Shown here in pieces: positions 2 to 22,177 of a stretch of 64,000 bases of DNA. The position numbers were made by a program, and so were the translations under genes. The notes below the pieces were generated by a model. That model did no database searches, had not been told where the DNA came from, and was given only the letters and a program-made list of their open reading frames with translations. Source of the stretch: Phycicoccus sp. CSK15P-2 (lineage in GTDB: Bacteria; Actinomycetota; Actinomycetes; Actinomycetales; Dermatophilaceae); NCBI RefSeq assembly GCF_016888005.1, contig NZ_JAFDVE010000008.1, forward strand, positions 124,001 through 188,000, in the 5' to 3' direction. Within the stretch, counting starts at the first letter, position 1; every line of letters begins with the position of its first letter.

Positions 2-538
2 ACCATGGGGCGGGCCCAAGGTCTCTCGACGGCCGTGCGCGCCGCCGCGCTGGCCCAGCAGCGCGGTGTCCACATGATCTTGCGCCTCGTCGGATCCGGG
101 GCCGACCGGCCGTCCCTGCAACGGCTGGCGCGAGAGACCGGTGGGCCGGTGGAGATCCTGGACCCCGTCCCGCGGCAGCGGATGGCCGAACAGTACGCCT
201 GGGCCGACACCGCGCTGGTCTCGTTGCGTCCGTGGCCGGCCCTGGAATGGACGGTCCCCTCGAAGCTCTACGAGATCATGGGCCTCGGCCTGCACGTGAC
301 GGCCGTCGTGGCCGGAGAGGCACGCGAGATCGTCGAAGGACGCGGCGCCGGTGACGTCTCGGCCCCTGGGGACGTCCCGGGGTTGGCCTCGTTGTGGGAG
401 TCGCTCGCCGCGGACCGGGACCGACTGACCGTGCGTGCGAGCGCACGTGAGTGGGTCGAGGAGCACGCGCACGCGGAAGCCCTGGGGGCACACTACGCGG
501 ATCTCCTCACGTGGGCGGTGGCGTCGCATGGCCGGTGA
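2..538 (+). CDS. GT4-family glycosyltransferase, C-terminal part (5' end outside window)
   Basis: The visible 178 or so residues are the nucleotide-sugar-binding C-lobe of a GT-B glycosyltransferase. A GTMGRAQGL-like opening is followed by a Rossmann segment (LRLVGSG), then VPSKLYEIMGLGL, where the Glu of the E-x7-E type motif usually sits. The frame is open to the left edge, so the N-lobe lies outside the window and the internal ATG at 5 is not a credible start. The stop overlaps the next glycosyltransferase start by 11 bp, so the two are translationally coupled. Its place at the head of an exporter and sugar-nucleotide gene run suggests a cytoplasmic enzyme that extends a surface polysaccharide. 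The donor and acceptor cannot be read from the sequence. Confidence 0.85.
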   Translation, partial: TMGRAQGLSTAVRAAALAQQRGVHMILRLVGSGADRPSLQRLARETGGPVEILDPVPRQRMAEQYAWADTALVSLRPWPALEWTVPSKLYEIMGLGLHVTAVVAGEAREIVEGRGAGDVSAPGDVPGLASLWESLAADRDRLTVRASAREWVEEHAHAEALGAHYADLLTWAVASHGR

Positions 539-2300
539 CCCACGACCGGCCACGCGGCGCGTCGCGGCCCTGGCTCGCAACGTCGGGATGCTCGCCGCCA
601 CGGCCGGCGCGCGTCTCGAGGACGACCCGGTGCGTCTGGCGGTCCTCGCTGTCCGCCGGCTCCCCCTGCGGGCTCGCCGCCCCGTCGCCGCAGCCCTGGT
701 GAGGGGCGGCCGGCGGAGCGGCCGCCCGGTCCTGCACGGGCTGGGCCTGGTGCTCGCCGACCGCCCGGACGAGGCGCGGAGCCTGCTCGGCAGCCGGGTG
801 CCTCCCGGCCGGCTCGCCGGGGAGATCGCCGTCGAGCTGGGTCTCACCCTGCCCACAGATGCTTCGGCCGCGGTGCGGGCCCGTCGGACGTGGCAGCGCG
901 GTGACCTCGCCGGCGCCGTCGAGGTGCTGCGGTCCTCCGATGCCCGGGGCGCACGCCGACAGGCGGCACGACTGGAGTCCGAGCGGCGGACGTACCTGCC
1001 GGGACAGCGTCTTGCCGGGCCTCCGCCCGGGCGGCATCGGCGTCCCGCCGCGTCCGGACGCACCGGCGGCGTCTCGGTGCTCCATCTGCTGACGAACTCG
1101 CTGCCGTGGACCCAGTCCGGCTACGCCCTCCGCTCGCACGGCATCCTGCGTGCGCAGCGGGCCGCCGGAGCGCGGGCGGAGGCCGTGACCCGGGTCGGGT
1201 ACCCGGTCGTCGTGGGTCTGCCCTGGGCTGCGGAGACCGACGTCGTCGACGGCGTGCCCTACCACCGGCTGATCCCGCGTCGGCTCGGGGCGACGCCCGA
1301 GGCGCGCCTCGAGCAGGCGGCGACCCTGCTCGCCGGCCACGTCGACCGCGCTGGTGCCGACGTGCTCCACACGACCACCCACTACGTCAACGGGCTCGTC
1401 GCGGAGGCCGTGGCCCGGTCCCGCGGCGTGCCCTGGGTCTACGAGATGCGCGGGCAGCTGGAGAAGACGTGGCTGGCGACCTTCCCCGCCGGCGAGCGCG
1501 AGACCGTCCGTGCCAGTGAGCGCTACCGGCTCTGGCGTGCCAAGGAGGTCGAGACGGCGCGCGCGGCCGACCACGTCGTCGCGCTGTCGCAGGTGCTCCG
1601 CCGCGAGCTCTGCGCTGCCGGTGTCGACCCGGCACGGGTGTCGGTCGTCCCCAACGCCGTCGACGCCGCACTCGTCGAGGCGGGCCGGACCTCCCCAGCG
1701 CCCCCGGACGCCCGACGTTCGGTGGGGCTCCCGGAGGAGGGCATGTGGGTCGGTACCGTCTCCTCTCTCGTCACGTACGAGGGGCTGGACATCCTGCTCC
1801 ACGCCGTGGCGCGGCTGCGTCGCGAAGGCCTCGACGTGCGCTGTGCGATCGTCGGCGACGGGTCCGCCCGTGCCGGGCTCGTCCGGCTCGCCGGGACGCT
1901 GGGACTCGACGGTGCCGCGGTTCTTCCCGGTCGGGTGGACCGCAGCGCCGCGACCGCCTGGGTCTGGGCACTCGACCTCGTGGCCACCCCGCGGCGGGAC
2001 ACCGAGGTGACCCGGAGCGTGACCCCGCTCAAGCCGGTGGAGGCGATGGCGCTCGGACGCCCCGTCGTCGTGAGCGACCTGCCGGCGCTCGCGGAGGTCG
2101 TCGGCGACGAGGGCGCCGGTCTACTCGTGACCCCGGAGGATCCGGACGCCCTGGCGGATACGATTCGAGAGCTGTACGCCGACCCCCTGCGCAGGTCGGA
2201 GATCGCTGGTCGAGGGCGCGAGGTCGCCGCGACGCGGACCTGGCAGGAGATGGCCCGGCGGTACCTGTCCGTCTACCAGACCCTCGGGAGCGCCCGGTGA
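528..2300 (+). CDS. GT4-family glycosyltransferase with N-terminal helical extension
   Basis: A 590-residue protein. The ATG at 528 overlaps the previous stop; upstream in-frame starts would run deep into that gene. The first 180 or so residues are Arg/Ala-rich and helical without a transmembrane segment. A GT-B N-lobe follows (VLHLLTNSLPWTQSGYALR, then YEMRGQLEKTW), and a C-lobe with EGLDILLHAVARL and KPVEAMALGRPVVVSD. Its N-lobe clearly resembles those of the genes at 13283-16060 and 18609-20927, so the three form a local paralogous set. It probably transfers a sugar to a lipid-linked intermediate on the cytoplasmic face. The stop overlaps the ABC permease start (GTGA), which indicates one operon. 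Confidence 0.88.
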   Translation: MAGDPRPATRRVAALARNVGMLAATAGARLEDDPVRLAVLAVRRLPLRARRPVAAALVRGGRRSGRPVLHGLGLVLADRPDEARSLLGSRVPPGRLAGEIAVELGLTLPTDASAAVRARRTWQRGDLAGAVEVLRSSDARGARRQAARLESERRTYLPGQRLAGPPPGRHRRPAASGRTGGVSVLHLLTNSLPWTQSGYALRSHGILRAQRAAGARAEAVTRVGYPVVVGLPWAAETDVVDGVPYHRLIPRRLGATPEARLEQAATLLAGHVDRAGADVLHTTTHYVNGLVAEAVARSRGVPWVYEMRGQLEKTWLATFPAGERETVRASERYRLWRAKEVETARAADHVVALSQVLRRELCAAGVDPARVSVVPNAVDAALVEAGRTSPAPPDARRSVGLPEEGMWVGTVSSLVTYEGLDILLHAVARLRREGLDVRCAIVGDGSARAGLVRLAGTLGLDGAAVLPGRVDRSAATAWVWALDLVATPRRDTEVTRSVTPLKPVEAMALGRPVVVSDLPALAEVVGDEGAGLLVTPEDPDALADTIRELYADPLRRSEIAGRGREVAATRTWQEMARRYLSVYQTLGSAR

Positions 2301-3175
2301 GCCCATCCACCTCCGCAGGCGTCCCCCTCGTCGTCGAGGACGTCGACGTCAGCCGCCTGCGCCCCGTCGGCCGGCGCCCCAACATCGCCCGGTACATCGC
2401 GAACCTCTGGGGCCGCCGGCACTTCATCGTCGCCGACTCGCGGGTCCGTGCCCTCTCCGGTGAACGCGACACCATCCTCGGCAGGTTCTGGCTCGTCGGC
2501 AGGCCCCTCCTCGACGGCGTCACCTTCTTCCTGATCTTCGGGGTGCTTCTCAACGCCTCCCGGGGCATCGACAACTACATCGGCTTCCTCCTCATCGGTG
2601 TGTTCCTCTTCACCTGGACCTCGCAGTCACTGACGCAAGGCGCAGCCTCCCTCAACTCGGGGCGCAACCTCATCCGTGGTTTCGCGTTCCCGCGGGCGTC
2701 CATCCCTCTCGCGCTCGCGCTCCGGGAGGCCATCGCGATGGGCCCCCGACTGCTCACCCTCGTGGCGATGATCCTCGTCATCCCGCCGCACGCGCAGATC
2801 TCCTGGTACTGGGTGCTCTTTCCCGGGGTCCTCGTCCTCCAGGGGATGTTCAACGTGGGGGTCGTCCTCTACGCGGCCCGCCTCGTGCACGCGGTTCCCG
2901 ACCTGCGTCTCCTGCTCGGCTTCTCGTCCCGGCTCTGGATGTACGGCTCGGGCGTCATGTACTCGATCGACCGGTTCGTCGAGCATCCCCAGGCGCTCGC
3001 GGTGATGCAGCTCAACCCGGCCTACTGCGTGCTCGAGATCAGCCGTGACCTCCTGCTCTACGCGACGCTTCCCGAGCCGCGGCTGTGGCTGACCCTCGCC
3101 GCGTGGGCGGCCGCCACCCCCGTGCTCGGCTTCCTCTACTTCTGGCAGGGCGAGGAGGAGTACGGCCGTGAGTGA
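2297..3175 (+). CDS. ABC-2 type polysaccharide exporter permease (Wzm/TagG-like)
   Basis: A 292-residue membrane protein. The GTG at 2297 overlaps the preceding TGA, and longer in-frame starts fall inside the glycosyltransferase gene. A cytoplasmic N-terminus of about 65 residues is followed by six hydrophobic segments typical of ABC2_membrane permeases, such as LLDGVTFFLIFGVLL, IGFLLIGVFLFTW and LTLAAWAAATPVLGFLYFW. The loop with NLIRGFAFPRASIPLA is the usual coupling region of Wzm/TagG/RfbD proteins. With the ATPase that overlaps its 3' end it should export a completed or lipid-linked polysaccharide across the membrane. No Wzx/Wzy is present, so an ABC-dependent route is favoured. Confidence 0.9.
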   Translation: MSPSTSAGVPLVVEDVDVSRLRPVGRRPNIARYIANLWGRRHFIVADSRVRALSGERDTILGRFWLVGRPLLDGVTFFLIFGVLLNASRGIDNYIGFLLIGVFLFTWTSQSLTQGAASLNSGRNLIRGFAFPRASIPLALALREAIAMGPRLLTLVAMILVIPPHAQISWYWVLFPGVLVLQGMFNVGVVLYAARLVHAVPDLRLLLGFSSRLWMYGSGVMYSIDRFVEHPQALAVMQLNPAYCVLEISRDLLLYATLPEPRLWLTLAAWAAATPVLGFLYFWQGEEEYGRE

Positions 3176-4076
3176 GCTGTCCTCGCCGGTCCCCCGCGAC
3201 GGCATCCCCCTCGGTGAGCCCACGGTCAGCGTGCGCCGGCTGTCCGTGCACTACCGCGTCGCCAGCACCGAGCTGGGTGCCACGCTCACCCGCCGCGACC
3301 GGGTCCGTCGCCGGGTCGGTCTGCCCCGGACGGTCACGGTCAGGGCGTTGGACGACGTGTCCTTCGTCGCCCGGGCGGGGGAGTCGATCGGTGTCGTGGG
3401 CCAGAACGGCTCCGGCAAGAGCACCTTGCTGCGCATCGTCGCCGGCCTCGAGACACCGACGAGTGGCGAGGTGCTCGCGACCTCGACCCCGACGTTCCTC
3501 AGCGTCAACGCGGCCCTCGTCCCGGAGGTCTCCGGGCTGCAGAACATCCGTCTCGGGCTGCTGGCCATGGGCCGCTCGCCGGCGGAGGTGGACGAGCTGG
3601 TCCCGGACGTCATCAAGCTCGCCGGGATCGGCAACGCCGTGCACCGCCCGATGCGCTCGTACTCCTCGGGGATGGGCGCCCGCCTGCGGTTCGCCATCGC
3701 CGCGGCGGCCCGCCCGGAGATCCTCTTGATCGACGAGGCCCTTGCCACCGGCGACGCCGCGTCGAAGGAGCGGAGCGAGAAGCGGATGGCGGAGATCAGG
3801 TCGACCGCCGGCACGATCTTCCTCGTCTCGCACGCCGCCCAGACCATCGAGGAGATGTGCACGCGGGCGATCTGGCTGCACGACGGCGAGCTCGTCCTCG
3901 ACGGCCCGGCCGAGGAGACCGCACGCTCCTACCGGTGGTGGGCGTGGAACGTCGCCAAGGGCGAGGACGACGTCGCCGCCGACGTCCTGGAGAAGTGCCG
4001 GGCCCGGCTCCGTGCGACGCTGGTCCGGCACGAGGACCCGAAGCAGCACATCCCCCGTCATTCCCCTGCCTCCTGA
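3168..4076 (+). CDS. ABC transporter ATPase for polysaccharide export (Wzt/TagH-like)
   Basis: A 302-residue ATPase starting at GTG 3168, 8 bp inside the permease gene. Walker A (GQNGSGKST, about residue 78), the YSSGM signature (about 165), Walker B (ILLIDEA, about 186) and the H-loop (VSHAA, about 220) are all intact, so it should hydrolyse ATP. Only about 45 basic residues follow the nucleotide-binding domain. The beta-sandwich O-antigen-binding domain of E. coli O8/O9-type Wzt is therefore absent, and export is probably not tied to a terminal cap in that way. It resembles TagH/KpsT-type partners. The wecB ribosome-binding site overlaps its stop. Confidence 0.9.
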   Translation: MSELSSPVPRDGIPLGEPTVSVRRLSVHYRVASTELGATLTRRDRVRRRVGLPRTVTVRALDDVSFVARAGESIGVVGQNGSGKSTLLRIVAGLETPTSGEVLATSTPTFLSVNAALVPEVSGLQNIRLGLLAMGRSPAEVDELVPDVIKLAGIGNAVHRPMRSYSSGMGARLRFAIAAAARPEILLIDEALATGDAASKERSEKRMAEIRSTAGTIFLVSHAAQTIEEMCTRAIWLHDGELVLDGPAEETARSYRWWAWNVAKGEDDVAADVLEKCRARLRATLVRHEDPKQHIPRHSPAS

Positions 4077-4088
4077 GGAGTACCACGC

Positions 4089-5234
4089 ATGTCCCGCCGC
4101 GTCATGACGGTCTACGGCACCAGGCCCGAGGCCATCAAGGTGGCCCCCGTCGTCCGGGCGCTCGAGAAACACTCCGAGCTCGAGTCGGTCACCGTCGTCA
4201 CGGGCCAGCACCGCGAGATGTTGGACCAGGTCAACGCCATCTTCGGGATCACGCCCGACCACGACCTCGACGTCTTCGCCCACGGACAGACCCTCAACGG
4301 CCTCATGGCCAAGGTCTTCGGCCGGCTCGACCCGGTGCTCGTCGACGAGCAGCCCGACGCCGTCCTCGTGCAGGGTGACACCTCGACCGTGGCGGCCGCC
4401 TCGATCGCCGCGTTCTACCGGGGGATCCCGGTCGTCCACCTCGAGGCCGGGCTGCGCAGCGGCGACATCCACTCGCCGTTCCCCGAGGAGGCCAACCGCC
4501 GGCTGACGAGCCAGGTGACGGCGCTGCACCTGGCGCCGACCCCGACCTCCCGCGAGAACCTCCTGCGCGAGGCCACCGACCCGGGGACGGTCGTGGTCAC
4601 GGGCAACACCGTGATCGACGCGCTGCTGCACACGGTCGAGCAGGACATCCCGTTCACCGACGACCGCCTGGCACGGCTGGAGAAGGAAGGCCGCCCGCTC
4701 CTGCTCGTCACGACCCACCGGCGGGAGAGCTGGGGCGGGGCGATGGAAGGGGTCGGGCGGGCGCTCGGCCGCCTGGCCGCCGCCTACCCGGACACCACGG
4801 TCGTCCTGCCGGCACACCGCAACCCCATCGTCCGCGAGGCGATCCTGCCGCACGTCAAGAGCTACGAGAACGTGCTGGTCACCGAACCGATGGCCTACGG
4901 CGAGTTCACCCGCCTCATGGCACTGGCCACGGTGGTCCTCACGGACTCCGGCGGAGTGCAGGAGGAGGCTCCCTCGCTCGGTAAGCCGGTGCTCGTCATG
5001 CGGGAGAACACCGAGCGCCCGGAGGCGGTCGACGCCGGCACGGTCCGGCTCATCGGGACCGACGAGGAACGGGTCGTCGAGGAGGTGTCCCGGCTGTTCG
5101 ACGTCGAGAGCGCCCATCGGGCGATGGCGAACGCCGTGAACCCCTACGGCGACGGGAAGGCGGCTGCGCGCTCCGTGGCCGCGATCGCCGCGACGTTCGG
5201 GCTCGGGGAGCGACTGCCCGACTTCGGGTCGTGA
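4089..5234 (+). CDS. wecB: UDP-N-acetylglucosamine 2-epimerase (non-hydrolysing)
   Basis: A 381-residue full-length Epimerase_2 protein. The ATG at 4089 follows a GAGGAG ribosome-binding site 8 nt upstream. Family motifs are present in order: GTRPEAIKVAPV, VQGDTSTVAAAS, HLEAGLRSGD, PEEANRR, THRRES and DSGGVQEEAPSLGKPVL. These carry the expected catalytic Asp, two Glu and His. The enzyme interconverts UDP-GlcNAc and UDP-ManNAc in the cytoplasm. Its partner dehydrogenase (wecC, 20933-22177) lies in the converging operon, so together they supply UDP-ManNAcA for the polymer exported by the adjacent ABC transporter. The stop overlaps the next start. Confidence 0.95.
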   Translation: MSRRVMTVYGTRPEAIKVAPVVRALEKHSELESVTVVTGQHREMLDQVNAIFGITPDHDLDVFAHGQTLNGLMAKVFGRLDPVLVDEQPDAVLVQGDTSTVAAASIAAFYRGIPVVHLEAGLRSGDIHSPFPEEANRRLTSQVTALHLAPTPTSRENLLREATDPGTVVVTGNTVIDALLHTVEQDIPFTDDRLARLEKEGRPLLLVTTHRRESWGGAMEGVGRALGRLAAAYPDTTVVLPAHRNPIVREAILPHVKSYENVLVTEPMAYGEFTRLMALATVVLTDSGGVQEEAPSLGKPVLVMRENTERPEAVDAGTVRLIGTDEERVVEEVSRLFDVESAHRAMANAVNPYGDGKAAARSVAAIAATFGLGERLPDFGS

Positions 5235-6034
5235 CCGCTCCGGAACGGCCCCACGCCCCAGCGCGGACGGTCCTCATCTACGGCAGCTGCGTCTCGCGTG
5301 ACACTTTCGAGTACCTGCAGCCGCTCGGCTACCGCCTCGTCGACTACGTCGCGCGCCAGAGCCTGGTCAGCGCCTTCAGCGCGGTGGACACCGCGCTGCT
5401 CGTCCCGTTCGAGGCCGACTCGGCCTTCCAGCGCAGGATGCTCGAGAACGACTGGCGTGCGAGCCTCGTCCCCACTCTGGAAGCCAAGGGCGGCCGGGCG
5501 GACGTGCTGCTTTGGGATCTCTGTGACGAGCGCCTCGGCATCCGTGAGCTCTCCGATGGGGGCTTCGTCACGAGGTCGGTCGACCTCATCTCGACCGGGG
5601 TGGACGCCCGCATGACGGGGCTCAGCGCCCTCGTCGACCTCGGCAGCCCCCGTCATCTCGAGCTCTGGACGGAGGCGCTGAGCTCCTGGCGCTCGTTGCT
5701 CTCCCGGGCAGGGCTGCTCGAGCGGCTCGTGCTGCTCGCCCCGCCCTGGGCCGAGAAGACACGGGACGGGGCGGCGTCTCCGACGAGCTTCGGACGCACC
5801 GCCCGGCAGGCGAACGCGCTCTTCGACATCTACCACGAGCGCGCCGCGAACCTGCTCGGCTGCCCTGTGGTCTCGCTCGACCGGGGCGAGGCGCGCAGCG
5901 ACTCCGACCACCGCTGGGGCCTCGCGCCGTTCCACTACACCGAACAGAACTACGTCTCACTCGCCGCCGGGATCGACTCCGCGGTCTCTGCGCTGCTCCA
6001 GGACGGCGTGGCCGACACGAGGCCGGGCGGATGA
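5231..6034 (+). CDS. DUF6270-type protein of polysaccharide loci
   Basis: A 267-residue protein starting at GTG 5231, overlapping the wecB stop. Its opening beta-strand ends in GSCVSRD (residues 18-24), characteristic of a family found in capsule and glycan loci and annotated as DUF6270. The family resembles SGNH-type or acyl-transfer folds but has no proven reaction that I can name. Other conserved-looking parts are LLWDLCDERLG and, near the C-terminus, APFHYTEQNYVSLA. No signal peptide or transmembrane segment is seen, so it is probably cytoplasmic. Translational coupling on both sides puts it in the polymer operon. A role in adding or removing a non-sugar substituent is an inference only. 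Confidence 0.7.
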   Translation: MTAPERPHAPARTVLIYGSCVSRDTFEYLQPLGYRLVDYVARQSLVSAFSAVDTALLVPFEADSAFQRRMLENDWRASLVPTLEAKGGRADVLLWDLCDERLGIRELSDGGFVTRSVDLISTGVDARMTGLSALVDLGSPRHLELWTEALSSWRSLLSRAGLLERLVLLAPPWAEKTRDGAASPTSFGRTARQANALFDIYHERAANLLGCPVVSLDRGEARSDSDHRWGLAPFHYTEQNYVSLAAGIDSAVSALLQDGVADTRPGG

Positions 6035-9649: not shown

Positions 9650-9728
9650 GGCGACCCCAGGCAGACGCGCTCCCGGGTTTTTCGGAGCCGGCGGGGTCGT
9701 CCGAACGTCCGTCTCGTGCCCCTTCGCC

Positions 9729-9757
9729 TTCGTCCGTGGCGGGACGGTTCTTACCCT
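9729..9757 (+). promoter_or_regulatory. promoter of the propeller/Ig-like secreted protein gene
   Basis: TTCGTC at 9729-9734, a 17-bp spacer and TACCCT at 9752-9757 form a plausible housekeeping-type promoter. It lies 60 bp before the chosen GTG at 9818, in the 168-bp gap after the glycosyltransferase operon. Confidence 0.45.
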
Positions 9758-9817
9758 GGGAGGGATCGTGTCGGGACCCGGCGCCCGCACGAGCGGAGTT
9801 CTAAGGAGCGATCGACG

Positions 9818-12800
9818 GTGGTCCCTGCACGGCGCGTCTTCTCATCGGTGATCTCGGTGCTGCTGGCCGCAGCACTGGCAATGTCGATCGCGGTGACGGC
9901 GCGTGCCGCGTCCCCGGAGGTCAGCGGTTCGGAACGCGACCTGGGTGCCCAGATTCCCGGGAAGCCCGAGGGGTTGCGCTCGGAGGACTCAGACCAAGGG
10001 CTCGTCGGTGGGCGCTACCTCACCTTCTTCGTCAACAACGGGGGTTCGGGCCGCTTGGCGCGCTTCTTCGCCATGGACCTCGACGGCACGAAGGTTGCCG
10101 AGGTCGACGTTCCACAGGGGACGGACATCAAGGGTCTTGTCTACGTTCCGGCATCCAAGACCGTGTTCTTCGCCGCGAACAGCGCGACGTACGCGTTCGT
10201 CTATCGATGGGACGGGTCGACCTTGCGCAAGGTCGCCAGCATCGCGAACCAGGCCGTCATGCGCCTGGCGGCCGCACCCGACGGCGCCGTCTATCTCGGC
10301 ACCTTCGCCCCCTCGAACGGGCGGCTCTACGTCTACGAGAGTGGCGGGCTGAAGGACCTGGGACAGCCGATGTCCGGCGAGTCCTACGTCCGCTCGCTCG
10401 CTGTCGATGCGGGCTCCGTCTGGGTCTCGAACTACCGATCCGCCGCGGCCAAGCTCGTTCGCGTGAACCGTAGCACCGGGGCGGGCACGACGATCGCGAC
10501 GCCATCCGCCTTCTCGTCGCAGTGGTCGGCCTTCCACATGACCTTGGCGGGCGACTACCTCTTCATGCGTACGGTCAACGACCCACGGCTTTTCGCCTAC
10601 AACACACGCACCGGGAAGTTCGCCACCTTCGACGACCAGGTCGCCAGAGACCGGTCGGTCCCGGAGACCCCGAACGTCGTCCCGTACATCGACGGCATCT
10701 CCCCCTACGGCATCTCTCCGCTCATCGAGGGCAGGTACGTCTACTTCCAGCGTTCCGGGGCGGGCATCATGCGGGTCGACCTCACGAACAACCTCAAGAC
10801 GATCAGGGTCGACAAGTGGAACGGTACGGACAACCCGGAGTCGTGGCCGGCCGCGTCCGTTCCAGGGCCGGTGTCTTACGCGTGGCTCTCCGGGGTCGGC
10901 GGCCGGCCCGGACCGTCCCTCGTGACGACCACGATCGACGCCAAGGTGTATGTCAACACGGCCAATCAGAGCGAGCCGCTCGTGCTGACGCTCCCGGCGA
11001 GGGGCACGCCGTCGACGATAAACAGTCTCGGAACCACCCCGACGGGGACGGTCCTGTCCGGCGGCTTCGACCTCCCGGAGGGCATCGGCACCTACACCCC
11101 GGGCACGGGAGACACCGGGCTGCTCGACGGACCGCAGATCGAGGGCTTCGGCACCTTCGACTCCTCGACGGTCATGGGCGGCTACACGGGCAACTCCTCG
11201 ACGTCGGCGCCGTTGTACCTCTACTCCGGGTCCGGGCAGCCGACCCTGAAGAGGTACATCAACAACAGCCAGGAGCGGCCGGTCGCCATCGCGCAGGTCG
11301 GCCGCCGGGTGGCCGTCGGAACAGTCCCGATCAAGAACCAGCTGGGTGGGGCCCTGAGCATCTGGGACCCCGCGACCAACGCGATCACCGTCAAGCGCAA
11401 CCTCATCCCGAACCACAGCGTCGTCTCGCTGGCGGCCCAGGGCAAGTTCGTCGTGGGTGGTTCCTCGAACACGGGCGGAACGGGCTCGACCCCGACGGCG
11501 ACCGACGGCAAGATCTTCACCTACGACACCACGAGCGGAGCACTCAAGACCTTCACCCCTCCGCGGGCGTCGTCGGCCACCTACTCCTGGGTGGCGGCCA
11601 TCACCCCGGACCCGAGCCAGGCGAACCACTACTGGGCTCTCTCGACCGGCTACCTCATCCAGTTCAAGGTCTCGTCCACCGGGACGATCAGCCTGACTCG
11701 CGATCTCGGCGCCTTTCCCAACACCTCCTCGCCCACCGGCAAGGAGCTCGGGATCGCGTTCGTCGGCGAGACCATGTTCGCGACCGTCGGCCAAGGGCTC
11801 TCGGCGATCAACCCGGTCACGGGTGAGCAGACGGTCGTCGCAGCGAAGACCAGCGCCGGGGCCGTCACCGGTCTGGTGAGGTCCGGGTCGTCCGATCTCT
11901 ACTTCGCCCGCGGGGCCAGGCTGTACCGGTACAGCGTCGACAGCGCGTCGACCTCGACGTCGCTCCTGGCGCCGGTCGTGACCTCGCCCGACATCAAGAG
12001 CACCGTGGCTCCGGGCGCGATCTCCTTCTCGGGAACCGGGACGAAGAACTCGACCGTCGAGGTCAGCGACGGGTCACGGACCCGGTCCGCGCTCGTGCGG
12101 GACGACGGGACCTGGGAGCTGGCCCCGATGGACTTCGACACCGGGACCTTCGACCTGACCTTCACGGCGTCGATGGACGGGTTCTCGTCGAGGACGACCC
12201 GGGTCTCGCTGTCCGTCGCGCCCACCACCGACGACCGGTGCGCGATCGAGAAGCCGGTCCCGACGAACATCGCCGTCGGCGGCTACAACAAGCCCAACAC
12301 CAACTACGCCTTCGAGGGGACCGGGACCCCGGGCTCGGTGGTCACGATGGTGAGCGGCAGCCGGACGCGCACGGCGACGGTGCGCGAGGACGGCACCTGG
12401 TCGATGAACCCCGTGTGGTTCGGATGGTGGTCCGGGATGGTGCCGTTCACCGCGTCCCGCGAGGGCTGCCCGAGCGTGACGAACGAGGTCACGGCCTGGT
12501 TCGTCGAGCGGGGGACCTACCACGTCCCGACTCTGCTCATCAGCCACACCGAGACCCACTGGTACCCCGGAGGTGAGATCGCGTTCAAGGGCAAGGGCAC
12601 GCCGGGTGCGCTGGTCACCTTCCTCATCGGCAACCAGACACGGTTCGCGGCCGTCAGCAGTACCGGTCGGTGGACGATGCGAGCGGTGGCCGTCTCGGAC
12701 GCCCCGGTGTCCTTCAGCCTGTTGTCCGAGCTGCCCGACTACCCGGACCAGAACGCCGCGTTCGACGTGCACTTCGGGACCGCACCGACGTCGGTCGTGG

Positions 12801-13057
12801 CGCCGCTCGTGTCGAGCCACACCGCGGGCTCGACCGTCGCTGCGGGTGACACCGTGTTCAGCGGCAAGGGCGCGCCACGGAGCAAGATCTCGCTCGCCGT
12901 GGGCGGCACCACGGTCAGCGCCTACGTCCGCTCGAGCGGCCGGTGGGACCTGCCGCCGGTCTCCGTGCCGGCAGGCAGGCAGACTCTGCGCTTCACGGCG
13001 TCCTCCCCGGGCCTGTCACCCCAGTCCACCTCGGTGACGATGTCGTTCTCCGGCTGA
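9818..13057 (+). CDS. secreted beta-propeller protein with four C-terminal Ig-like repeats
   Basis: 1079 residues from GTG 9818, with AAGGAG at 9803-9808. In-frame starts further upstream would cross the promoter. A basic N-terminus, a hydrophobic stretch (SVISVLLAAALAMSIAV) and TARA/AS near residue 29 form a Sec signal peptide. Residues of about 60-690 contain recurring strand patterns (YLTFFVNNGG, VYLGTFAPSNGRLYVYESGG, KIFTYDTTSGALKTF) typical of a WD/YVTN-like propeller. The last 360 residues hold four related modules of about 90 residues, each with an F-x-G-x-G-(T/A) strand, then T-A-x-V and DGTW/GRW. No transmembrane anchor or sorting signal follows. The position inside the polysaccharide locus suggests an extracellular glycan-binding or surface-layer role; this is inferred from context. 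Confidence 0.8.
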   Translation: MVPARRVFSSVISVLLAAALAMSIAVTARAASPEVSGSERDLGAQIPGKPEGLRSEDSDQGLVGGRYLTFFVNNGGSGRLARFFAMDLDGTKVAEVDVPQGTDIKGLVYVPASKTVFFAANSATYAFVYRWDGSTLRKVASIANQAVMRLAAAPDGAVYLGTFAPSNGRLYVYESGGLKDLGQPMSGESYVRSLAVDAGSVWVSNYRSAAAKLVRVNRSTGAGTTIATPSAFSSQWSAFHMTLAGDYLFMRTVNDPRLFAYNTRTGKFATFDDQVARDRSVPETPNVVPYIDGISPYGISPLIEGRYVYFQRSGAGIMRVDLTNNLKTIRVDKWNGTDNPESWPAASVPGPVSYAWLSGVGGRPGPSLVTTTIDAKVYVNTANQSEPLVLTLPARGTPSTINSLGTTPTGTVLSGGFDLPEGIGTYTPGTGDTGLLDGPQIEGFGTFDSSTVMGGYTGNSSTSAPLYLYSGSGQPTLKRYINNSQERPVAIAQVGRRVAVGTVPIKNQLGGALSIWDPATNAITVKRNLIPNHSVVSLAAQGKFVVGGSSNTGGTGSTPTATDGKIFTYDTTSGALKTFTPPRASSATYSWVAAITPDPSQANHYWALSTGYLIQFKVSSTGTISLTRDLGAFPNTSSPTGKELGIAFVGETMFATVGQGLSAINPVTGEQTVVAAKTSAGAVTGLVRSGSSDLYFARGARLYRYSVDSASTSTSLLAPVVTSPDIKSTVAPGAISFSGTGTKNSTVEVSDGSRTRSALVRDDGTWELAPMDFDTGTFDLTFTASMDGFSSRTTRVSLSVAPTTDDRCAIEKPVPTNIAVGGYNKPNTNYAFEGTGTPGSVVTMVSGSRTRTATVREDGTWSMNPVWFGWWSGMVPFTASREGCPSVTNEVTAWFVERGTYHVPTLLISHTETHWYPGGEIAFKGKGTPGALVTFLIGNQTRFAAVSSTGRWTMRAVAVSDAPVSFSLLSELPDYPDQNAAFDVHFGTAPTSVVAPLVSSHTAGSTVAAGDTVFSGKGAPRSKISLAVGGTTVSAYVRSSGRWDLPPVSVPAGRQTLRFTASSPGLSPQSTSVTMSFSG

Positions 13058-13242: not shown

Positions 13243-13282
13243 GAGCCCTTGGTCGGCACATCCGGGCGAGCGAGGAGGACAC

Positions 13283-16060
13283 GTGACGCAAGGGGGTCGC
13301 GATGTGTCATCCGCGGACGGTGTCGAGGACCCCGGCATCGACCGGTGGCTGCCCGATGCCGTGGACGGATTGCTGAACAGCGGCCTGGTGGTCCCTGCCT
13401 TCGAGATGGTTCGGAGCGTCGAGGCGTGGGAGGTCCTCTCTGCTCCGGTCCTGCGCCGACTGTGCGTGGCCCTTCGTGGGCAGGGCTTCCTCGACCGGGC
13501 GCTGCGCGCCGCGGACGCGCTGGAGGTGAGGGACGGAGGCCCCGCCGAGCTGGGAGCGTCCCTACGTGGTGAGCTGGCGGTGCTCGGCGGGAGCTTCTCG
13601 GCCGAGGTCCCCGAGCCGGAGTCGCCTTTCGTCGCCCGGGCCGGTCGAGTGCTCAACGTCGTCGGAACCTCCCTTCCCGAGGTCGACTCGACCTTCACCC
13701 GACGCACTCAGGCGACAGCTCGCAGAATGTCCAGACTCGGGCTCGAGGTCTCCGTCGTGACCCAGATGGGCATCGGGGAGACCGACGGGTACGCCGTCGA
13801 GGAGGTCGACGGCGTCGAGTACCACCGGATCCCCGGTCCGCCCCGGCGCGAGATCCCGATGGACGAGTGGCTCATGGTGTTCGCCAACCGACTCTCCGCG
13901 GTTGTCCGCAAGGTGCGCCCCGGTGTGGTGGTGGCGTCGTCGGACTTCGTCAACGGGCTCGCCGCGCAGGCTGTGTGCAGGCCCTACGGGATCCCGCTGG
14001 TCTACGACGTCCGCGGACTGTGGGAGGACTCTTGGCTCGACCGGCAACGGGCGAGCAACTCGTGGACCGAGGAGCAGGTTCCGGAGCGGTGGGGGATGCC
14101 GGAGGCCTGGTCGATGCGCCGCGAGCGCGAGCTGCAGCTGGTCGAGACGGCCGATGCCGTCGTGACCGCCGGCGCACAGACGACACAGAAGCTGGTGGAG
14201 CTCGGCACGGCTGCCGAGAGGGTCACCGAGATCGGCGATGTCGAGAGCGACGCCGAGCGGTGGCTGGGTGTCTATGAAGACCTCGGCGCCCTCGAGCCGG
14301 GCGCTCGGGAGATCGCCCGGCTCGGCGACGGCCCTCCCGACCCGGCCGACGTCCGTCGCCGCGTGCGTGGGAGCGAGCGCATGCCCCTGGACCGCATCGC
14401 CGGTTTCGGTGGTTTCGGGACCACTCGGAGCATCAGGGAGGGGGGGTGGCGGCACAGCAGCCTGGAGCCCGTGCATATCACCAGTCCTTTCGACTGGGCC
14501 GGTGCCTGCCTCGACAACCGGTCGCAGGGCTTCCATCTCCATGCCTGGGACTTCATGGTTCCTTTCCTGAAGAGCTGGAACCGCAAGGGCGACCGGGAGT
14601 CCCTGACTTGGTGTCTCGAGCGCGCGAGCGACTGGGCGGCCACGTTCACCGTGGGGGACGCGCAGGGAACGATGGCCTGGTACGACATGGCCATCGGCCT
14701 GCGCGCGCCGCGCCTCGCGTACCTGCTGCAGGAGGCCGTGCACGAGGACGAGCCGGACGAGGTCGTGCAGCGGCTGGCACACGCCGTGGTCCGCCACCAG
14801 CACGAGCTGTTCCGCGACGAGGCGTTCAACCCGCGGACCAACCACGGCTTCTACAGCGCCGTCGGTCAGCTGAGCTTCGCGCGCCGGTTGTCGGCGCTCG
14901 ACGCCATGGACGTGATGACCCGGCAGGGTGAGCAGCGTCTCAAGGTGGTCGTCGCGACCCAGTTCGCCGAGGACGGGGGGCACCTCGAGCACTCGCCCGA
15001 CTACCACCGCATGCTCCTCGCGTCCTTCCGGGACGCGATGGAGGACGGTCTGCTGACCGACCCCGAGGTCGCCGCCCGCCTGTCGCGCGCCGAGGAGGTC
15101 ATGGGGTGGTTCATCCAGCCCGACCGGAGGATCGTGCAGATCGGGGACTCACCCGCTCGGCTGGTGTCACCCGAGGACCGGGCGGCACAGGAGCCACACA
15201 CGCAGTTCATCGCGAGTGTCGGTCGCGAAGGGAGTCGGAACGAGTCCGATCTCCTCGTGCTGCGCCAGTCGGGCTACGGCATCGTGCGCTCTCCCCAGCC
15301 GCACAGACGGGAAGACCACCTCCGGGCGGGCTACCTGACTCTCGTCGCGGGCTTCCACTCGCGGGCCCACAAGCACTGCGACGACCTCTCTCTGACGTGG
15401 TTCGACCAGGAGCAGGAGATCCTCGTCGACTCCGGACGGTTCGGGTATCTGGATCCCCTCCCACCGGACTCACCGGATCGTGCCCGGGGCTTCTTCTACG
15501 GTCGGCCCGAGCGTCAGTACGTGGAGAGCACACCGGCGCACAACACCGTGCAGGCCGGCGACGCCGACCACGAGCGGCGGGACCGTGAGCCGTACGGCTC
15601 CGGGATCGTCTCCGGCGAGGAGCGGGACGGCCACTTCCGCCTCGTGGGTCGGGTCGGGCACCTCGGGTGGGACCACGAGCGCACGGTGACCTACCGGCCA
15701 GGGACGTGGCTACTCGTCGAGGACCGGGTGAGCTCCCCGGATCCACAGGACTTCACGGTCTGGTGGAACCTGGCCGAGACATTGACCGACCCGAAGGCCA
15801 CCGGCTCCGAGGTGTCGTTCGGGCTGACGGGCTCGGACCGGCACCTTCGGGTCGTCTCCCTGTCGGGTGAGGAGCAGGTACCCGTCGTGAAGGGTCAGGA
15901 CGACCCTCTTCGGGGATGGCGGGCGGCGGTCGACTACGAGTTCACCCCGGTGTGGTCGCTCGCCCACCGTGCCGCCGGAGTGACCGAGCACGTCATGGTC
16001 ACGCTGCTCACCTTCGACGAGTCGCAGACCTCCCGACCTCGGTCCCCCTTCGATGAGTGA
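13283..16060 (+). CDS. chimera: GT4 N-lobe lacking its C-lobe, fused to a heparinase II/III-like lyase
   Basis: 925 residues from GTG 13283, preceded by GAGGAGG. Residues of about 10-110 are helical. Residues of about 122-316 match the N-lobes of the GT4 genes at 528 and 18609 (NVVGTSLPEVDST, SDFVNGLAAQAV, YDVRGLWEDSWLDRQ, then ELGTAAERVTEIGD). Where the paralogues continue into the sugar-nucleotide lobe, this protein goes straight to ESDAERWLGVYEDLGAL, which resembles the paralogues' last helix (RRYLSVYQTLGSA). From about residue 374 it is a heparinase II/III-type protein: an alpha/alpha helical domain with TNHGFYSAVGQLSF (about 519), then a beta-domain with HSRAHKHCDDLS (about 692), LVDSGRFGYL and AHNTV. 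No signal peptide is seen. It may cleave uronate-containing polymer in the cytoplasm, or be exported by an unrecognised route. Confidence 0.82.
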   Translation: MTQGGRDVSSADGVEDPGIDRWLPDAVDGLLNSGLVVPAFEMVRSVEAWEVLSAPVLRRLCVALRGQGFLDRALRAADALEVRDGGPAELGASLRGELAVLGGSFSAEVPEPESPFVARAGRVLNVVGTSLPEVDSTFTRRTQATARRMSRLGLEVSVVTQMGIGETDGYAVEEVDGVEYHRIPGPPRREIPMDEWLMVFANRLSAVVRKVRPGVVVASSDFVNGLAAQAVCRPYGIPLVYDVRGLWEDSWLDRQRASNSWTEEQVPERWGMPEAWSMRRERELQLVETADAVVTAGAQTTQKLVELGTAAERVTEIGDVESDAERWLGVYEDLGALEPGAREIARLGDGPPDPADVRRRVRGSERMPLDRIAGFGGFGTTRSIREGGWRHSSLEPVHITSPFDWAGACLDNRSQGFHLHAWDFMVPFLKSWNRKGDRESLTWCLERASDWAATFTVGDAQGTMAWYDMAIGLRAPRLAYLLQEAVHEDEPDEVVQRLAHAVVRHQHELFRDEAFNPRTNHGFYSAVGQLSFARRLSALDAMDVMTRQGEQRLKVVVATQFAEDGGHLEHSPDYHRMLLASFRDAMEDGLLTDPEVAARLSRAEEVMGWFIQPDRRIVQIGDSPARLVSPEDRAAQEPHTQFIASVGREGSRNESDLLVLRQSGYGIVRSPQPHRREDHLRAGYLTLVAGFHSRAHKHCDDLSLTWFDQEQEILVDSGRFGYLDPLPPDSPDRARGFFYGRPERQYVESTPAHNTVQAGDADHERRDREPYGSGIVSGEERDGHFRLVGRVGHLGWDHERTVTYRPGTWLLVEDRVSSPDPQDFTVWWNLAETLTDPKATGSEVSFGLTGSDRHLRVVSLSGEEQVPVVKGQDDPLRGWRAAVDYEFTPVWSLAHRAAGVTEHVMVTLLTFDESQTSRPRSPFDE

Positions 16061-17755: not shown

Positions 17756-17782
17756 CAGCGGGTGGTGCGAGGTCACCCGCTG
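17756..17782. terminator. inverted repeat between convergent genes
   Basis: Arms CAGCGGGTG (17756-17764) and CACCCGCTG (17774-17782) pair perfectly around a 9-nt loop and overlap the stop codon of the minus-strand gene. No T-run follows. It may terminate transcription from both sides. Confidence 0.5.
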
Positions 17783-18609
17783 TGCGTTGGGCCCCGCCTG
17801 AGGTCGGCGAAAACCTCCGAGACCACCCCGGCGATCAGGTCCCTGGGCGGTCGCGTATGGTCAGGACCCCAGTCTCCTTCGACGAGCCGAAGTCTCCGGC
17901 CGTTCACGGCCTCGCGGAAGGGCTGGAGGTGGTGGGTGACATGGTGTTCGTCGGCGCGGTTCTGCAGGTAGACGACATCGACGTCCGGTCGGGTTCGGCC
18001 GTACACCTCCGCGAGGTCACAGGTGACCCGGCTCCGGAGCAGGCGCGCGACCTCGGCCTCGTCCCCCTGCGCTCCCCAGCACCGCTCGGCGTACGGCATC
18101 CACCACCGGGTGTGGAAGTTCAGGATGTTCGTCTGCGGGTTGGCGACGACGGCGGTGCTCGCGGGGACGTGCCGGGCGATGTCCAAAGACGCGAAACCCC
18201 CTCCCGAGCCGCCGAAGAACACGACGTGGCGCGCTCCCGACAGCTCGACGAGGCGTAGGACGAACTCATGGATCCGCGTCTGGCTCACCGCTGTGGACCC
18301 GGCGAACCACGCGAGCAGGACGCCCTCGGCCAGGCACGGGTCCGACACGAGGATCCGGTTGGCCTCCTTGGCGGCGAGGGTCGCTCCCGTGAAGTGGGGC
18401 ACCGTGGTGCCGTCACGGCTGACCGCAGCATGGAACGACACGAAGGTGACGTCGGCGCCGATGAGGTCAACGAGGGCGTCCAGGGGCGGTGCGTCGTCGT
18501 GCTGGACGGAGACGACGTGTTCGCCGGGGCGTGGACAGATGTCCGCGATGTCACGGTAGATGTGTTCGGGACGTCTCCACCGGGCGACATCGCGGACCGG
18601 AGCGGACAC
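17773..18609 (-). CDS. alpha/beta-hydrolase-like protein of the polysaccharide locus
   Basis: 278 residues. The GTG start (complement 18607-18609) overlaps the stop codon of the upstream glycosyltransferase; longer in-frame reading would lie inside that gene. The core strand and nucleophile elbow read HVVFFGGSGGGFASLDIA, a G-x-S-x-G-G motif of alpha/beta hydrolases, with Asp and His candidates near the C-terminus (EGDWGPDHTRPPRDL). No signal peptide or transmembrane segment is visible. Proteins of this kind occur in capsule and Sec-accessory glycan loci as acyl-transfer or esterase candidates. A role in adding or removing acetyl or other ester groups on the polymer is plausible but inferred. 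It is the last gene of a four-gene operon. Confidence 0.7.
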   Translation of the reverse strand: MSAPVRDVARWRRPEHIYRDIADICPRPGEHVVSVQHDDAPPLDALVDLIGADVTFVSFHAAVSRDGTTVPHFTGATLAAKEANRILVSDPCLAEGVLLAWFAGSTAVSQTRIHEFVLRLVELSGARHVVFFGGSGGGFASLDIARHVPASTAVVANPQTNILNFHTRWWMPYAERCWGAQGDEAEVARLLRSRVTCDLAEVYGRTRPDVDVVYLQNRADEHHVTHHLQPFREAVNGRRLRLVEGDWGPDHTRPPRDLIAGVVSEVFADLRRGPTHSG

Positions 18610-20927
18610 TAGGCGCCGCTCGGTCGCGTCGTCGGCACGTCCGCCATGTCGCCCACGTCCATCCCCAGGGAACGGTAGACGTCGAGGTACACCCGGGCGT
18701 TGAGGTCCCAGGTGCGCTCGCTGCGCGTCCACGAGGCGCCTGTGCTCGCCATCGTGGCCATCCGGTCGGGGTCGGCGAGCAGGGCGGCCACGGTCGTCGC
18801 GAGGTCGAGGACGTCTCCCGCTCGGAACAGCGTCGCGGCCCCGCTGTCCTCCGCGATCTCCGCGAGGGCTCCGACGTCCGAGAAGACGCACGGTCTCCCC
18901 GTGGACATCGCCTCGTACGGCTTCAGAGGGGTGACCAGCTCGGTGACCGCTGCACGCTTGCGCGGGACCACGAAGAGGTCGATCGCCCCGTAGTACTCGA
19001 GGACGCTGTCGTGGGGGACCCGGCCGGTGAAGACCGCGCCCCGCATCCCCAGACTCTCGGCGAGCAGACGGAGCGTCTCGAGCTCGGCACCGTCACCGAC
19101 GACGAGGAGCTGCACCGGCCCGCCCGAGATCCGGCCGACCTGGAGGGCCAGCTCGCAGGAGTAGGCGTCGAGGGACTCCGGGTCCAGCGACGGGTGGCGC
19201 GGGCGCAGGCGCTCGGACAGCACCTCCGTGCGCGTGGGGCTGTCCTCGACGGGGACGTCCTGCGAGCGCAGCGTGTCCAGTGCGACCTCGACGTCGGACA
19301 TGGCCCGCACGAGCGTGTCGATGCCTTCGTACTCGACGATGGACGAGATGTAGCCGACGACCATGGTGTCGGGCGAGAACCCCAGCTGCTCGCGCAGTGC
19401 GTGGCTTCGTCCCACCACCGGGAAGTCCTCGACCGCGACGGCGTTGGGTGCGATGCTGACGGGTGGGGCAGGCAGGTCCAGGGAGGTCGCGACCTCGCCG
19501 ATGTGTGACTGCATCACGCGGGCGAGGGTCACGACGGCGGAGGCGGAGCTGCGCATCTGCGCCTCCCGCTCGACGCGGAGGCGGTAGACCTCGGGCAGGC
19601 CTACCCGTGCCTCGAGCTCGGCGAGGTCCTGCCACCCCTCCGCGTTGGCGGTCCGGGACAGCCAGCTCTCCTCCCAGAAGCCGCGGGTCTCGTTGACCAC
19701 TGGGATGCCGTACTGGGTCGCGACGGGGTGGGCGATCACCGCGTTGATGAAGTCGGAGTGCACGTGCAGGGCGGCGGGGCGCACCATCGACACGGTCTCC
19801 GCAAGAGCGCGGACGTTGGCCTCGACCCACTCGTCCCACGGGACCGCTCCACGCTGGGGGCCACCGAGCAGGAAGTAGCGGACCCCGCCGTGGACGTAGG
19901 TCTCCGTCAGCTCGTGTGCACGTGCCGTTGCTCCCGACTGCGTGACGACCACCGGGGTGATGCCCGCCCTGGCCTGCGCCTCGACCGTGTACTGCGTCCG
20001 AAGGGTGTAGCCGGACTGCCTCTCCGGAAGGGCGCTGCCGACGACGTGGACGACCGTGTCGGCGTTGGGCGGGCCCTCCAGCGGGGGCAGCGGGACGTCC
20101 CCGGTGACCCGCCCCTCGTACAGGTCCAGCTCCGATGCCAGGAGCGCCGCGGCACGCATGTCCTCCGGCTTGCCGAAGCGGGTCGCGATGCTACCCATCA
20201 GGTGCGCCGCGTTGCCCAGGAAGCCGAGCTGACGGAGCCGCCTCATGAGCCGTCGGGTCTCGGTGAGGCCCAGGCTCTCCACGATGTCGGGTCGTGCCTC
20301 CAGGAGGCGGATCGAGTCCAGGGGCCGGTCTCGGGCAACAGCGGCGCGGACCTGGTTCGTCGCCTGTCGGAGGCTCAGCACCTCCTCGAGCGGGACTCCC
20401 CGGGAATGCGCCAGGGTCGTGAGCGACTGGACCGTCTCGTACATGTCCTCGGCCAGTCCCGGGTGAGGGTCACGGGCAGCCCGCTCCTGCTCGTCGAGCC
20501 GCGCACCGAGGCTGTCGACGCGGGGATCCGCGACGGGGCGCTGCTCGAGCTCGACGACGCGCGCGTCCGTCTCGGCGAGGCGGCTGTCGAGCAGGGCGAC
20601 GCGAGGGTCCTCCGTGCGACGCTTCTCTACCTCGTCGAGGCGACTGCCGAGGAGTGCCAGTGACTCGGGCGAGACCGCTGCCGCGAGGCGCTTCTCCAGG
20701 TTGGCGATCCGCGTGGCCTGGATGTTTGCCCGTCTGCGGTAGGCCTGCGCGCCGACGACGACGATCGTCGCCGTGGAGACGGACGCGAGCAGCCCGATGG
20801 CGCCGAGCATCGCGAGGAGCCCACCGTCCGTCCACCCGACGACCAGGAGCAGCACGACGGACGCGACGACGCCCAGCATCAGCACCACTCCGGCGACGAC
20901 GAGCACGGTTCGCTGTACGGACGTCAT
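18609..20927 (-). CDS. membrane-anchored coiled-coil GT4 glycosyltransferase
   Basis: 772 residues from ATG 20927, 5 bp after wecC. Two N-terminal transmembrane segments (about residues 8-32 and 36-60) are followed by a coiled coil to about 150, which contains three spaced DPRVxxLxxRL units. A helical region and a complete GT-B domain from about residue 250 come next: HVVGSALPERQSGYTLR, NETRGFWEESWL, IVEYEGIDTLVRAM, VVGDGAELETL and TPLKPYEAMSTGRPCVFSD. An insertion of about 45 residues between the IVEYEGIDTLVRAM and VVGDGAEL regions is unusual. The anchor and coil would hold the enzyme at the exporter or in an oligomer, a length-control type arrangement that I infer rather than see. Confidence 0.85.
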   Translation of the reverse strand: MTSVQRTVLVVAGVVLMLGVVASVVLLLVVGWTDGGLLAMLGAIGLLASVSTATIVVVGAQAYRRRANIQATRIANLEKRLAAAVSPESLALLGSRLDEVEKRRTEDPRVALLDSRLAETDARVVELEQRPVADPRVDSLGARLDEQERAARDPHPGLAEDMYETVQSLTTLAHSRGVPLEEVLSLRQATNQVRAAVARDRPLDSIRLLEARPDIVESLGLTETRRLMRRLRQLGFLGNAAHLMGSIATRFGKPEDMRAAALLASELDLYEGRVTGDVPLPPLEGPPNADTVVHVVGSALPERQSGYTLRTQYTVEAQARAGITPVVVTQSGATARAHELTETYVHGGVRYFLLGGPQRGAVPWDEWVEANVRALAETVSMVRPAALHVHSDFINAVIAHPVATQYGIPVVNETRGFWEESWLSRTANAEGWQDLAELEARVGLPEVYRLRVEREAQMRSSASAVVTLARVMQSHIGEVATSLDLPAPPVSIAPNAVAVEDFPVVGRSHALREQLGFSPDTMVVGYISSIVEYEGIDTLVRAMSDVEVALDTLRSQDVPVEDSPTRTEVLSERLRPRHPSLDPESLDAYSCELALQVGRISGGPVQLLVVGDGAELETLRLLAESLGMRGAVFTGRVPHDSVLEYYGAIDLFVVPRKRAAVTELVTPLKPYEAMSTGRPCVFSDVGALAEIAEDSGAATLFRAGDVLDLATTVAALLADPDRMATMASTGASWTRSERTWDLNARVYLDVYRSLGMDVGDMADVPTTRPSGA

Positions 20928-20932
20928 CGGAC

Positions 20933-22177
20933 TCAGCGCCAGACGCCTCGGGTGTCGATGAGCACCTTCTCCATGAGTCGCTCGCGTGGCACGTTCTTGA
21001 ACTCCTTGTGATCGACGAGGAGGACGACGACGTCGGCCTTCTCCAAGGCGTCGTCCACCGGGGTGAGCGACACGTTCGACCGGTCGGCGAGCGCGTCGGG
21101 AAGGGTGTCGATGTTCGGCTCCACCGCGAGGATGCTCGCCTCCGGCAGCCGCTCGGCGAGGGCGGTCGTGATGCCGAGCGCCGGCGACTCGCGCAGGTCG
21201 TCGATGTCGGGCTTGAAGGCGAGACCCAGGGCGGCCACCACGGGGTCCTTGAACCTCTCCGCCCGCTCCTGCACCTGACGGAGCACGACCTCCGGCTTCC
21301 CGTCGTTGACCTCGCGGGCGGTGCGGATGAGCCGCGCCTCCTCCGGCACGGCGCTGACGATGAACCAGGGGTCGACCGCGATGCAGTGGCCACCGACGCC
21401 GGGGCCGGGCTGGAGGATGTTGACCCGGGGGTGCTTGTTCGCCAGCTCGATGAGCTCGAAGACGTCGATGCCCAGCCGGTCGGCGATGACGGACAGCTCG
21501 TTGGCGAAGGCGATGTTCACGTCGCGGAACGAGTTCTCGGTGAGCTTGGCCATCTCGGCCGTCGTGGCGTCGGTGAGGTGCAGCTGCGCACCGCAGAACA
21601 CCTGGTACACGTCGCGCGCCCGGGTGGCGGCCTCCGGGGTGAGGCCACCGATGATCCGGTCGTTCGTCACGAGCTCGATCATCACCCGGCCGGGCAGCAC
21701 GCGCTCCGGGCAGTGCGCCACGTGCACGACCGGCCGGCTCCGGGACCCGTCGAGGGACAGGTCCTCGCGGGCCGCCATCACCCGCCGGGCCATGTGCTCG
21801 GTCGTCCCCGGGGGGGAGGTCGACTCGAGGATGAGCAGCTCGCCGCCCCGCAGCTGCGGCGCGATCGCGTCGGTGGCCGCGTCGATGTAGGACAGGTCGG
21901 CCTCGTAGCCGTCCTTGAACGGCGTCGGGACGGCGACGATGTACACGTCCGCCTGGGGGGTGTCCTTCTGGGCCCGTAGCCGGCCCTGGCTCACCGCGCC
22001 CGCGACGTGGGTCGCGAGGTCCGGTTCCACGAACGGCACCTCACCACGGTTCACCGCGTCGACGTGGCGGTCGCTGACGTCGACCCCGACGACGTCGACC
22101 CCGTTCGTGGCGAGGATGGCTGCGGTCGGCAACCCGATGTAGCCGAGGCCGATGACGGCGACGGTCAGGCTCTCCAC
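20933..22177 (-). CDS. wecC: UDP-N-acetyl-D-mannosamine dehydrogenase
   Basis: 414 residues from GTG (complement 22175-22177) with GGAGG upstream. The N-terminal Rossmann motif GLGYIGLPTAAILA binds NAD. ESTSPPGTTE, the helix with LTENSFRDVNIAFANEL, and GGHCIAVDPWF with the catalytic Cys in GxGGHCIAVDP match the UDP-glucose/GDP-mannose dehydrogenase family, and the WecC branch in particular. The C-terminal domain has LGLAFKPDIDDLRESPAL. It oxidises UDP-ManNAc to UDP-ManNAcA in two steps. WecB is encoded 16 kb away on the other strand of the same locus. Related UDP-N-acetylhexosamine dehydrogenases are the main alternative. Confidence 0.9.
   Translation of the reverse strand: MESLTVAVIGLGYIGLPTAAILATNGVDVVGVDVSDRHVDAVNRGEVPFVEPDLATHVAGAVSQGRLRAQKDTPQADVYIVAVPTPFKDGYEADLSYIDAATDAIAPQLRGGELLILESTSPPGTTEHMARRVMAAREDLSLDGSRSRPVVHVAHCPERVLPGRVMIELVTNDRIIGGLTPEAATRARDVYQVFCGAQLHLTDATTAEMAKLTENSFRDVNIAFANELSVIADRLGIDVFELIELANKHPRVNILQPGPGVGGHCIAVDPWFIVSAVPEEARLIRTAREVNDGKPEVVLRQVQERAERFKDPVVAALGLAFKPDIDDLRESPALGITTALAERLPEASILAVEPNIDTLPDALADRSNVSLTPVDDALEKADVVVLLVDHKEFKNVPRERLMEKVLIDTRGVWR

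Follow-up and report, generated by a model that had tools for sequence, protein, structure and literature searches.

What would a polysaccharide lyase do with half of a glycosyltransferase? The question is raised by a gene in a stretch of 64,000 nucleotides from Phycicoccus sp. CSK15P-2 (contig NZ_JAFDVE010000008.1, positions 124,001 to 188,000 of the forward strand), which we refer to as the window and whose own numbering is used here. ORF analysis and Pfam place the gene at 13283..16060 (+), and its product of 925 amino acids consists, in order, of the N-lobe of a GT4 glycosyltransferase (GT), a terminal GT-fold helix at about residues 320-337, and a lyase of the heparinase II/III type. The start codon is a GTG at 13283, upstream of which the ribosome-binding site AGGAGG can be read at 13273..13278 (+); the reading frame is uninterrupted from 13058 and other in-frame GTG codons are present upstream of 13283. 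Directly 5' of the gene, 9716-13057 encodes a large protein with a bacterial Ig-like domain that has a 76% counterpart in G001, another genome of the genus. A hydropathy scan, which is not a dedicated predictor, gave no transmembrane or signal-like segment in the truncated protein, in keeping with the cytoplasmic location that had been inferred when this DNA was read from its letters alone (the sequence-only reading).

The GT part is preceded by a pre-domain (residues about 15-115; 13325..13627, +) that aligns in part with the other truncated copies described below and with an intact paralogue, B; the window protein lacks the hydrophobic N-terminal hairpin that precedes this region in B and in the complete fusions. 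The N-lobe (residues 120-316; 13640..14230, +) scored over the Pfam cut-off with Glyco_trans_4_4 at residues 140-315 (E 6e-14) and Glyco_transf_4 at 141-316, and the Pfam scan of the protein returned no match to a GT C-lobe model. Both paralogues in the window, at 528..2300 (+) and 18609..20927 (-), match N- and C-lobe models, although the N-lobe match of the second falls under the Pfam cut-off, and the N-lobe of the window protein aligns with them at 30% and 38% identity, respectively, as had been anticipated. Alignment with nine complete fusions and four intact GTs sets the junction at which the C (nucleotide-sugar) lobe is missing at 14231..14239 (+), with some three residues between the end of the N-lobe and the retained last helix (residues 320-337; 14240..14293, +). 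An HMM of the GT last helix did not find this helix in the truncated proteins; however, in a permutation test its aligned score over six rows was 10.6, against column-permuted maxima with a mean of -4.95 (sd 2.65), and none of 500 permutations reached 10.6. Five of the six rows also place it singly, the exception being Isoptericola. In GT-B enzymes the last helix crosses back onto the N-lobe, which can account for its being kept despite the loss of the C-lobe. The earlier description of a GT4 N-lobe and last helix without the nucleotide-sugar lobe is therefore borne out by Pfam, the alignments and the permutation test, and the retained closing helix makes this a clear case of a GT-B enzyme that has lost one lobe and kept the other. 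Such a half GT is probably unable to build sugar chains.

The lyase that follows in frame is complete, also as previously described, with both of its domains scoring over the Pfam cut-offs: Hepar_II_III_N at residues 404-587 (14492..15043, +; 27.8 bits, cut-off 22) and Hepar_II_III_C at residues 656-844 (15248..15814, +; 71.4 bits, cut-off 24). The protein is the sole Hepar_II_III_C match in its own genome (E 0.001). When a profile was built from 22 lyase domains its top match was heparinase III (PL12), with an E value of 4e-15. A paper on PL35 lyases (PMC12088678) gives Asn240, Tyr294 and His424 as catalytic residues of 4MMH, and in our alignment Asn520 (14840..14842, +), Tyr574 (15002..15004, +) and His696 (15368..15370, +) fall on the heparinase III chain residues corresponding to Asn240, the neutraliser, Tyr294 and His424, a correspondence that uses a 24-residue offset inferred from the numbering. 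The lyase half is a probable sugar-chain-cutting enzyme. The triad is present in 21 of the 22 lyase rows. The exception is a lone lyase in G110 (L066 9054-10817), which lacks the catalytic Tyr, has NK in place of the NH pair and sits on a long branch; it may be an inactive lyase next to an intact GT.

The same architecture was found elsewhere. Near full-length matches free of stop codons are encoded by G001 (63%), an Agrococcus MAG (58%), Isoptericola chiayiensis (49%; G062, at 50%, was counted as the same assembly) and G178 (44%), and, with the window, the truncated open frame is intact in five genomes, which represent three families in addition to the Agrococcus MAG. A further genome, G295, has the N-lobe and the lyase in two overlapping frames (L058 6030-11288). 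These breaks could be real frameshifts, or possibly sequence errors in that assembly, since the B-type GT of G295 is likewise split. In the order sample, with no more than two or three places scored per genome, 15 of 396 genomes had a close relative of the lyase (at least 262 bits); four of these carriers have the intact truncated form, one the broken form, nine a complete fusion and one (G110) separate neighbouring genes. The distribution is patchy, with two of 12 genomes positive in the genus of the window and, at E 1e-40, 3/186 in its family, 4/221 in that of Isoptericola, 10/47 in that of G046 and 2/24 in that of G178. A plasmid collection gave eight records, each under 60% identity and none covering 80% of the query.

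In 12 genomes (G228, G421, G385, G368, G046, G360, G273, G060, G322, G1062, G1092 and G1095) a GT4 with both lobes is followed by the lyase in a single frame, an arrangement that is a new observation relative to the sequence-only reading. Pfam was applied to four of the 12 (G228, G1062, G1092 and G1095), the N-lobe models in G1092 and G1095 and Hepar_II_III_N in G1062 coming just under the cut-off. The hydropathy scan gave an N-terminal hydrophobic segment or hairpin in all 12, a feature shared with the GT gene of G110 and with B-type GTs, whereas none was seen in the truncated proteins. In all 12 the stretch between GT and lyase was free of hydrophobic segments. GTs that use nucleotide sugars work on the cytoplasmic side, so the lyase of the complete fusions should be cytoplasmic as well. 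This arrangement suggests that in some bacteria a single intracellular molecule both makes and trims a surface polymer. We found no report of a polymerase-lyase fusion in the open-licence full-text literature on such fusions, related polymers and lyases, where off-topic papers were judged by title and the start of the abstract and the slash spelling of heparinase II/III was probably missed.

The lyase tree groups all six truncated copies in a single clade (98/94), which is sister to the complete fusion of G228 with support of 94/97, below the tool's star, and the other complete fusions lie outside. A single clade of all complete fusions together with two nested lone lyases, a grouping that was named after inspection of the tree, was rejected (p-AU 0.0125). 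The truncated copies were again one clade (98/98) in the N-lobe tree, in which their union with G228 was neither recovered nor rejected (p 0.20 when forced). Because the truncated lyases form one clade beside a complete fusion and the complete-fusion clade is rejected, a single origin of the truncated protein, from a bifunctional synthase-lyase, is most likely. In the simplest history a complete fusion lost its C-lobe by one internal deletion, and its N-terminal hairpin as well. It had been proposed that in this protein cleavage replaced synthesis. Complete fusions flank the truncated clade on both sides of the lyase tree, which contradicts that proposal, and synthesis and cleavage were therefore probably in one protein first.

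Which polymer might be involved is indicated by the surrounding genes. The window encodes a second intact GT4, of A type (528..2300, +, by Pfam), an ABC-2 type exporter permease (2300..3175, +; Pfam ABC2_membrane) and an exporter ATPase (3168..4076, +; Pfam ABC_tran), both conserved in relatives, and, by profile match, the UDP-GlcNAc 2-epimerase WecB (4089..5234, +) and the UDP-ManNAc dehydrogenase WecC (20933..22177, -), in agreement with the previous assignment to a ManNAcA-type polymer locus. A DUF6270 protein (5231-6034; E 5e-65) also lies in this polysaccharide locus and has homologues in several related loci. Matches to the window-type permease, ATPase and wecB were found near the gene in all 18 fusion carriers, truncated or complete and including the window, and the dehydrogenase model NF008286 scored over its cut-off in all 18 (17 and the Agrococcus MAG), as it did in G110, G850 and G860. 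In the order sample it did so in 51 of 248 genomes, eight of which carry the lyase (8/8 carriers vs 43/240, Fisher p 2e-6, uncorrected for kinship and with the 240 taken as non-carriers). However, a general ManNAcA rule for the whole lyase group is contradicted by four distant lone-lyase genomes (two Nocardiopsis, G490 and G584), none of which exceeds the NF008286 cut-off and which have a general sugar-nucleotide dehydrogenase only; likewise, the surroundings of distant lone lyases (L004, L005, L113 and L114) gave no match to the wecB, wecC or ABC genes of the window. The wider lyase group is therefore not bound to ManNAcA, and this family may act on another uronic acid; the ManNAcA link is narrowed to genomes with a fusion and to the lone lyases closely related to these.

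A possible working partner for the truncated protein is the intact B-type paralogue (18609..20927, -), identified by Pfam, alignment and its hydrophobic N-terminus in the hydropathy scan. All six truncated carriers have a B-type GT gene in the locus; it occupies a single frame in five of them and two overlapping ORFs in G295. In G001 the gene spans the border of two analysed stretches. In Agrococcus the stop codon of B overlaps a GTG start of the truncated fusion (GTGA). On the other hand, the B-type GTs of these genomes fall into two different GT lineages, which weakens the case for a specific pairing of B with the truncated protein.

We propose, with about even confidence, that the truncated protein descends from a bifunctional polymerase-lyase by subfunctionalisation and works in the cytoplasm as a lyase, cutting the ManNAcA polymer next to its polymerase as the chain grows; the substrate, activity, docking, trimming and any control of chain length are all inferred. 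The ancestor would have been a GT4 whose hydrophobic N-terminus probably served as a membrane anchor and whose C-terminus carried a PL12-like lyase, encoded in loci for ABC export of a ManNAcA polymer. In the lineage of the window both the N-terminal hairpin and the sugar-nucleotide lobe would have disappeared from the lyase copy, with synthesis falling to an intact GT encoded separately (B). What remains of the GT part, the N-lobe and its closing helix, is most likely a folded docking or spacer domain that would hold the lyase near the GT complex in the cytoplasm, although the strong divergence of the Isoptericola N-lobe, which keeps 10 of 45 invariant positions, makes a conserved docking surface uncertain. 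ABC systems complete their polymer in the cytoplasm, and chains destined for ABC export have to be halted at some length while still inside the cell. By beta-elimination the lyase may cut the uronic-acid linkages of a chain that is growing or has stalled, so that the chain is trimmed ahead of export.

A bolder form of this proposal, which we put forward tentatively and think less probable, is that one complex both synthesises and ends the chain, the cut of a lipid-linked ManNAcA chain serving as a built-in terminator that sets length before ABC export, and that, in the lineage of the window, the bifunctional enzyme was divided between an intact GT and a lyase docking via a dead GT half. According to the PL35 lyase paper (PMC12088678), such cleavage produces a new unsaturated non-reducing end. 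Here the non-reducing, growing end would become a 4,5-unsaturated uronic acid after the cut; such an end has no O-4 acceptor and would therefore not be extendable, which is how the cut could act as a terminator. A polymerase fused to a lyase would be a length-control or proofreading device. The series of lone lyase, complete fusion and truncated fusion with separate GT makes the length-control idea testable. This series of forms, more than the truncated protein alone, is the main object of interest.

The main rival to trimming or termination is the recycling of failed chains, in which a cytoplasmic lyase would degrade mis-assembled or unexported chains without setting length and the N-lobe would only aid folding or binding. 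We consider this rather unlikely, if seriously to be weighed. Lyase relatives that lack a GT domain stand free in wecB/wecC loci (G860 and G850), with distant ones outside such loci (Nocardiopsis and G490), and several loci (L002, L066, L110, L111 and L112) encode a second, different heparinase-type protein, all of which would suit a clean-up enzyme; however, the 12 genomes in which the lyase is joined to a complete GT speak for a coupling with synthesis. The second heparinase II/III-type protein (L002 3415-6351, L066 5054-8056, L110 13721-16921 and L111 6128-9103) is distant, with about 25% identity to the window lyase, shows NH, YH and HxH motifs in the alignments inspected, and is fused to a domain resembling the window ORF 17773-18891 (-), which has no Pfam match. 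Separately, a second lyase without a GT was observed directly behind the complete fusion in three loci (L057 11647-13422, L062 10301-12853 and L123 10122-11930). Those of G421 and G360 nest within the complete-fusion clade and so look like duplicates minus the GT part; the third was outside the tree sample.

The two remaining functional alternatives turn on the N-lobe, for which 45 invariant columns were defined on 13 intact relatives (nine complete fusions and four intact GTs). The truncated proteins keep 28 (window), 25 (G001), 24 (Agrococcus), 10 (Isoptericola) and 20 (G178) of these, against a leave-one-out control in which the intact members retain from 45/45 down to 45/54; in contrast, of 157 lyase columns invariant in the nine complete fusions the truncated copies retain 134-142. 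Between the window and G001 the N-lobe has a dN of 0.25 and a dS of 1.18 (dN/dS about 0.21) and the lyase a dN of 0.25 and a dS of 1.75, with dS near saturation. On these values the N-lobe is under purifying selection, at least in the window/G001 lineage; with invariant positions lost and dN/dS low, it is no longer a GT half, yet still constrained.

This constraint, together with an RG.WE.SW stretch intact in three of the five truncated copies, is what favours the idea of the sequence-only reading that the N-lobe still recognises the acceptor polymer and presents the chain to the lyase. However, Isoptericola and G178 have it in changed form or not at all, and H125, Q135, G137 and H217 are changed in all five, the loop Gly and two His residues being among the losses. 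We conclude that retained polymer recognition is doubtful and regard it as improbable. We give equally little credence to the N-lobe being a decaying passenger on a lyase that alone matters. Identity between the window and Isoptericola does fall faster in the N-lobe (35%) than in the lyase (61%), and in G295 the halves are in separate overlapping frames, although the split B gene there points to sequence errors; against this, the dN/dS of the N-lobe is low and the open frame has been kept across the five genomes. Finally, that a sequencing or assembly error joined two genes, for which nothing favourable was found, has practically no chance of being right and is ruled out, as the architecture recurs in independent genomes (matches of 63, 58, 49-50 and 44%), intact in four and frame-broken in a fifth.

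Among known systems, the window lyase resembles PL12 heparinase III (4mmh/4mmi, 4fnv and 5jmd) in its profile match and triad. PL12 heparinase III proteins are secreted glycosaminoglycan degraders, whereas the window protein is probably cytoplasmic, is encoded in a biosynthetic locus and is fused to a GT remnant. It is also distinct from the HepC NCBIfam equivalog, with which it scores 13.4 bits against a cut-off of 600. The alginate lyases (8bdd, 4nei and 9irq) belong to the same broad class of toroid plus beta-sheet lyases, PL17 being given that fold class in PMC12088678, and have a similar His region, but their matches are weaker and confined to the C-terminal part. With GT4s of the TIGR04063 kind the window protein shares a homologous N-lobe and last helix; it differs from them in having no nucleotide-sugar lobe and in the loss of the conserved N-lobe loop, and it scores 79 bits against a TIGR04063 cut-off of 442, which the intact paralogues (238 and 239 bits) also fail to reach. 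The complete GT4-lyase fusions, such as that of G228 (L056 7411-10989), have kept the C-lobe and hydrophobic N-terminus that are absent from the window protein, and have in common with it a homologous lyase, N-lobe and last helix and the same type of locus.
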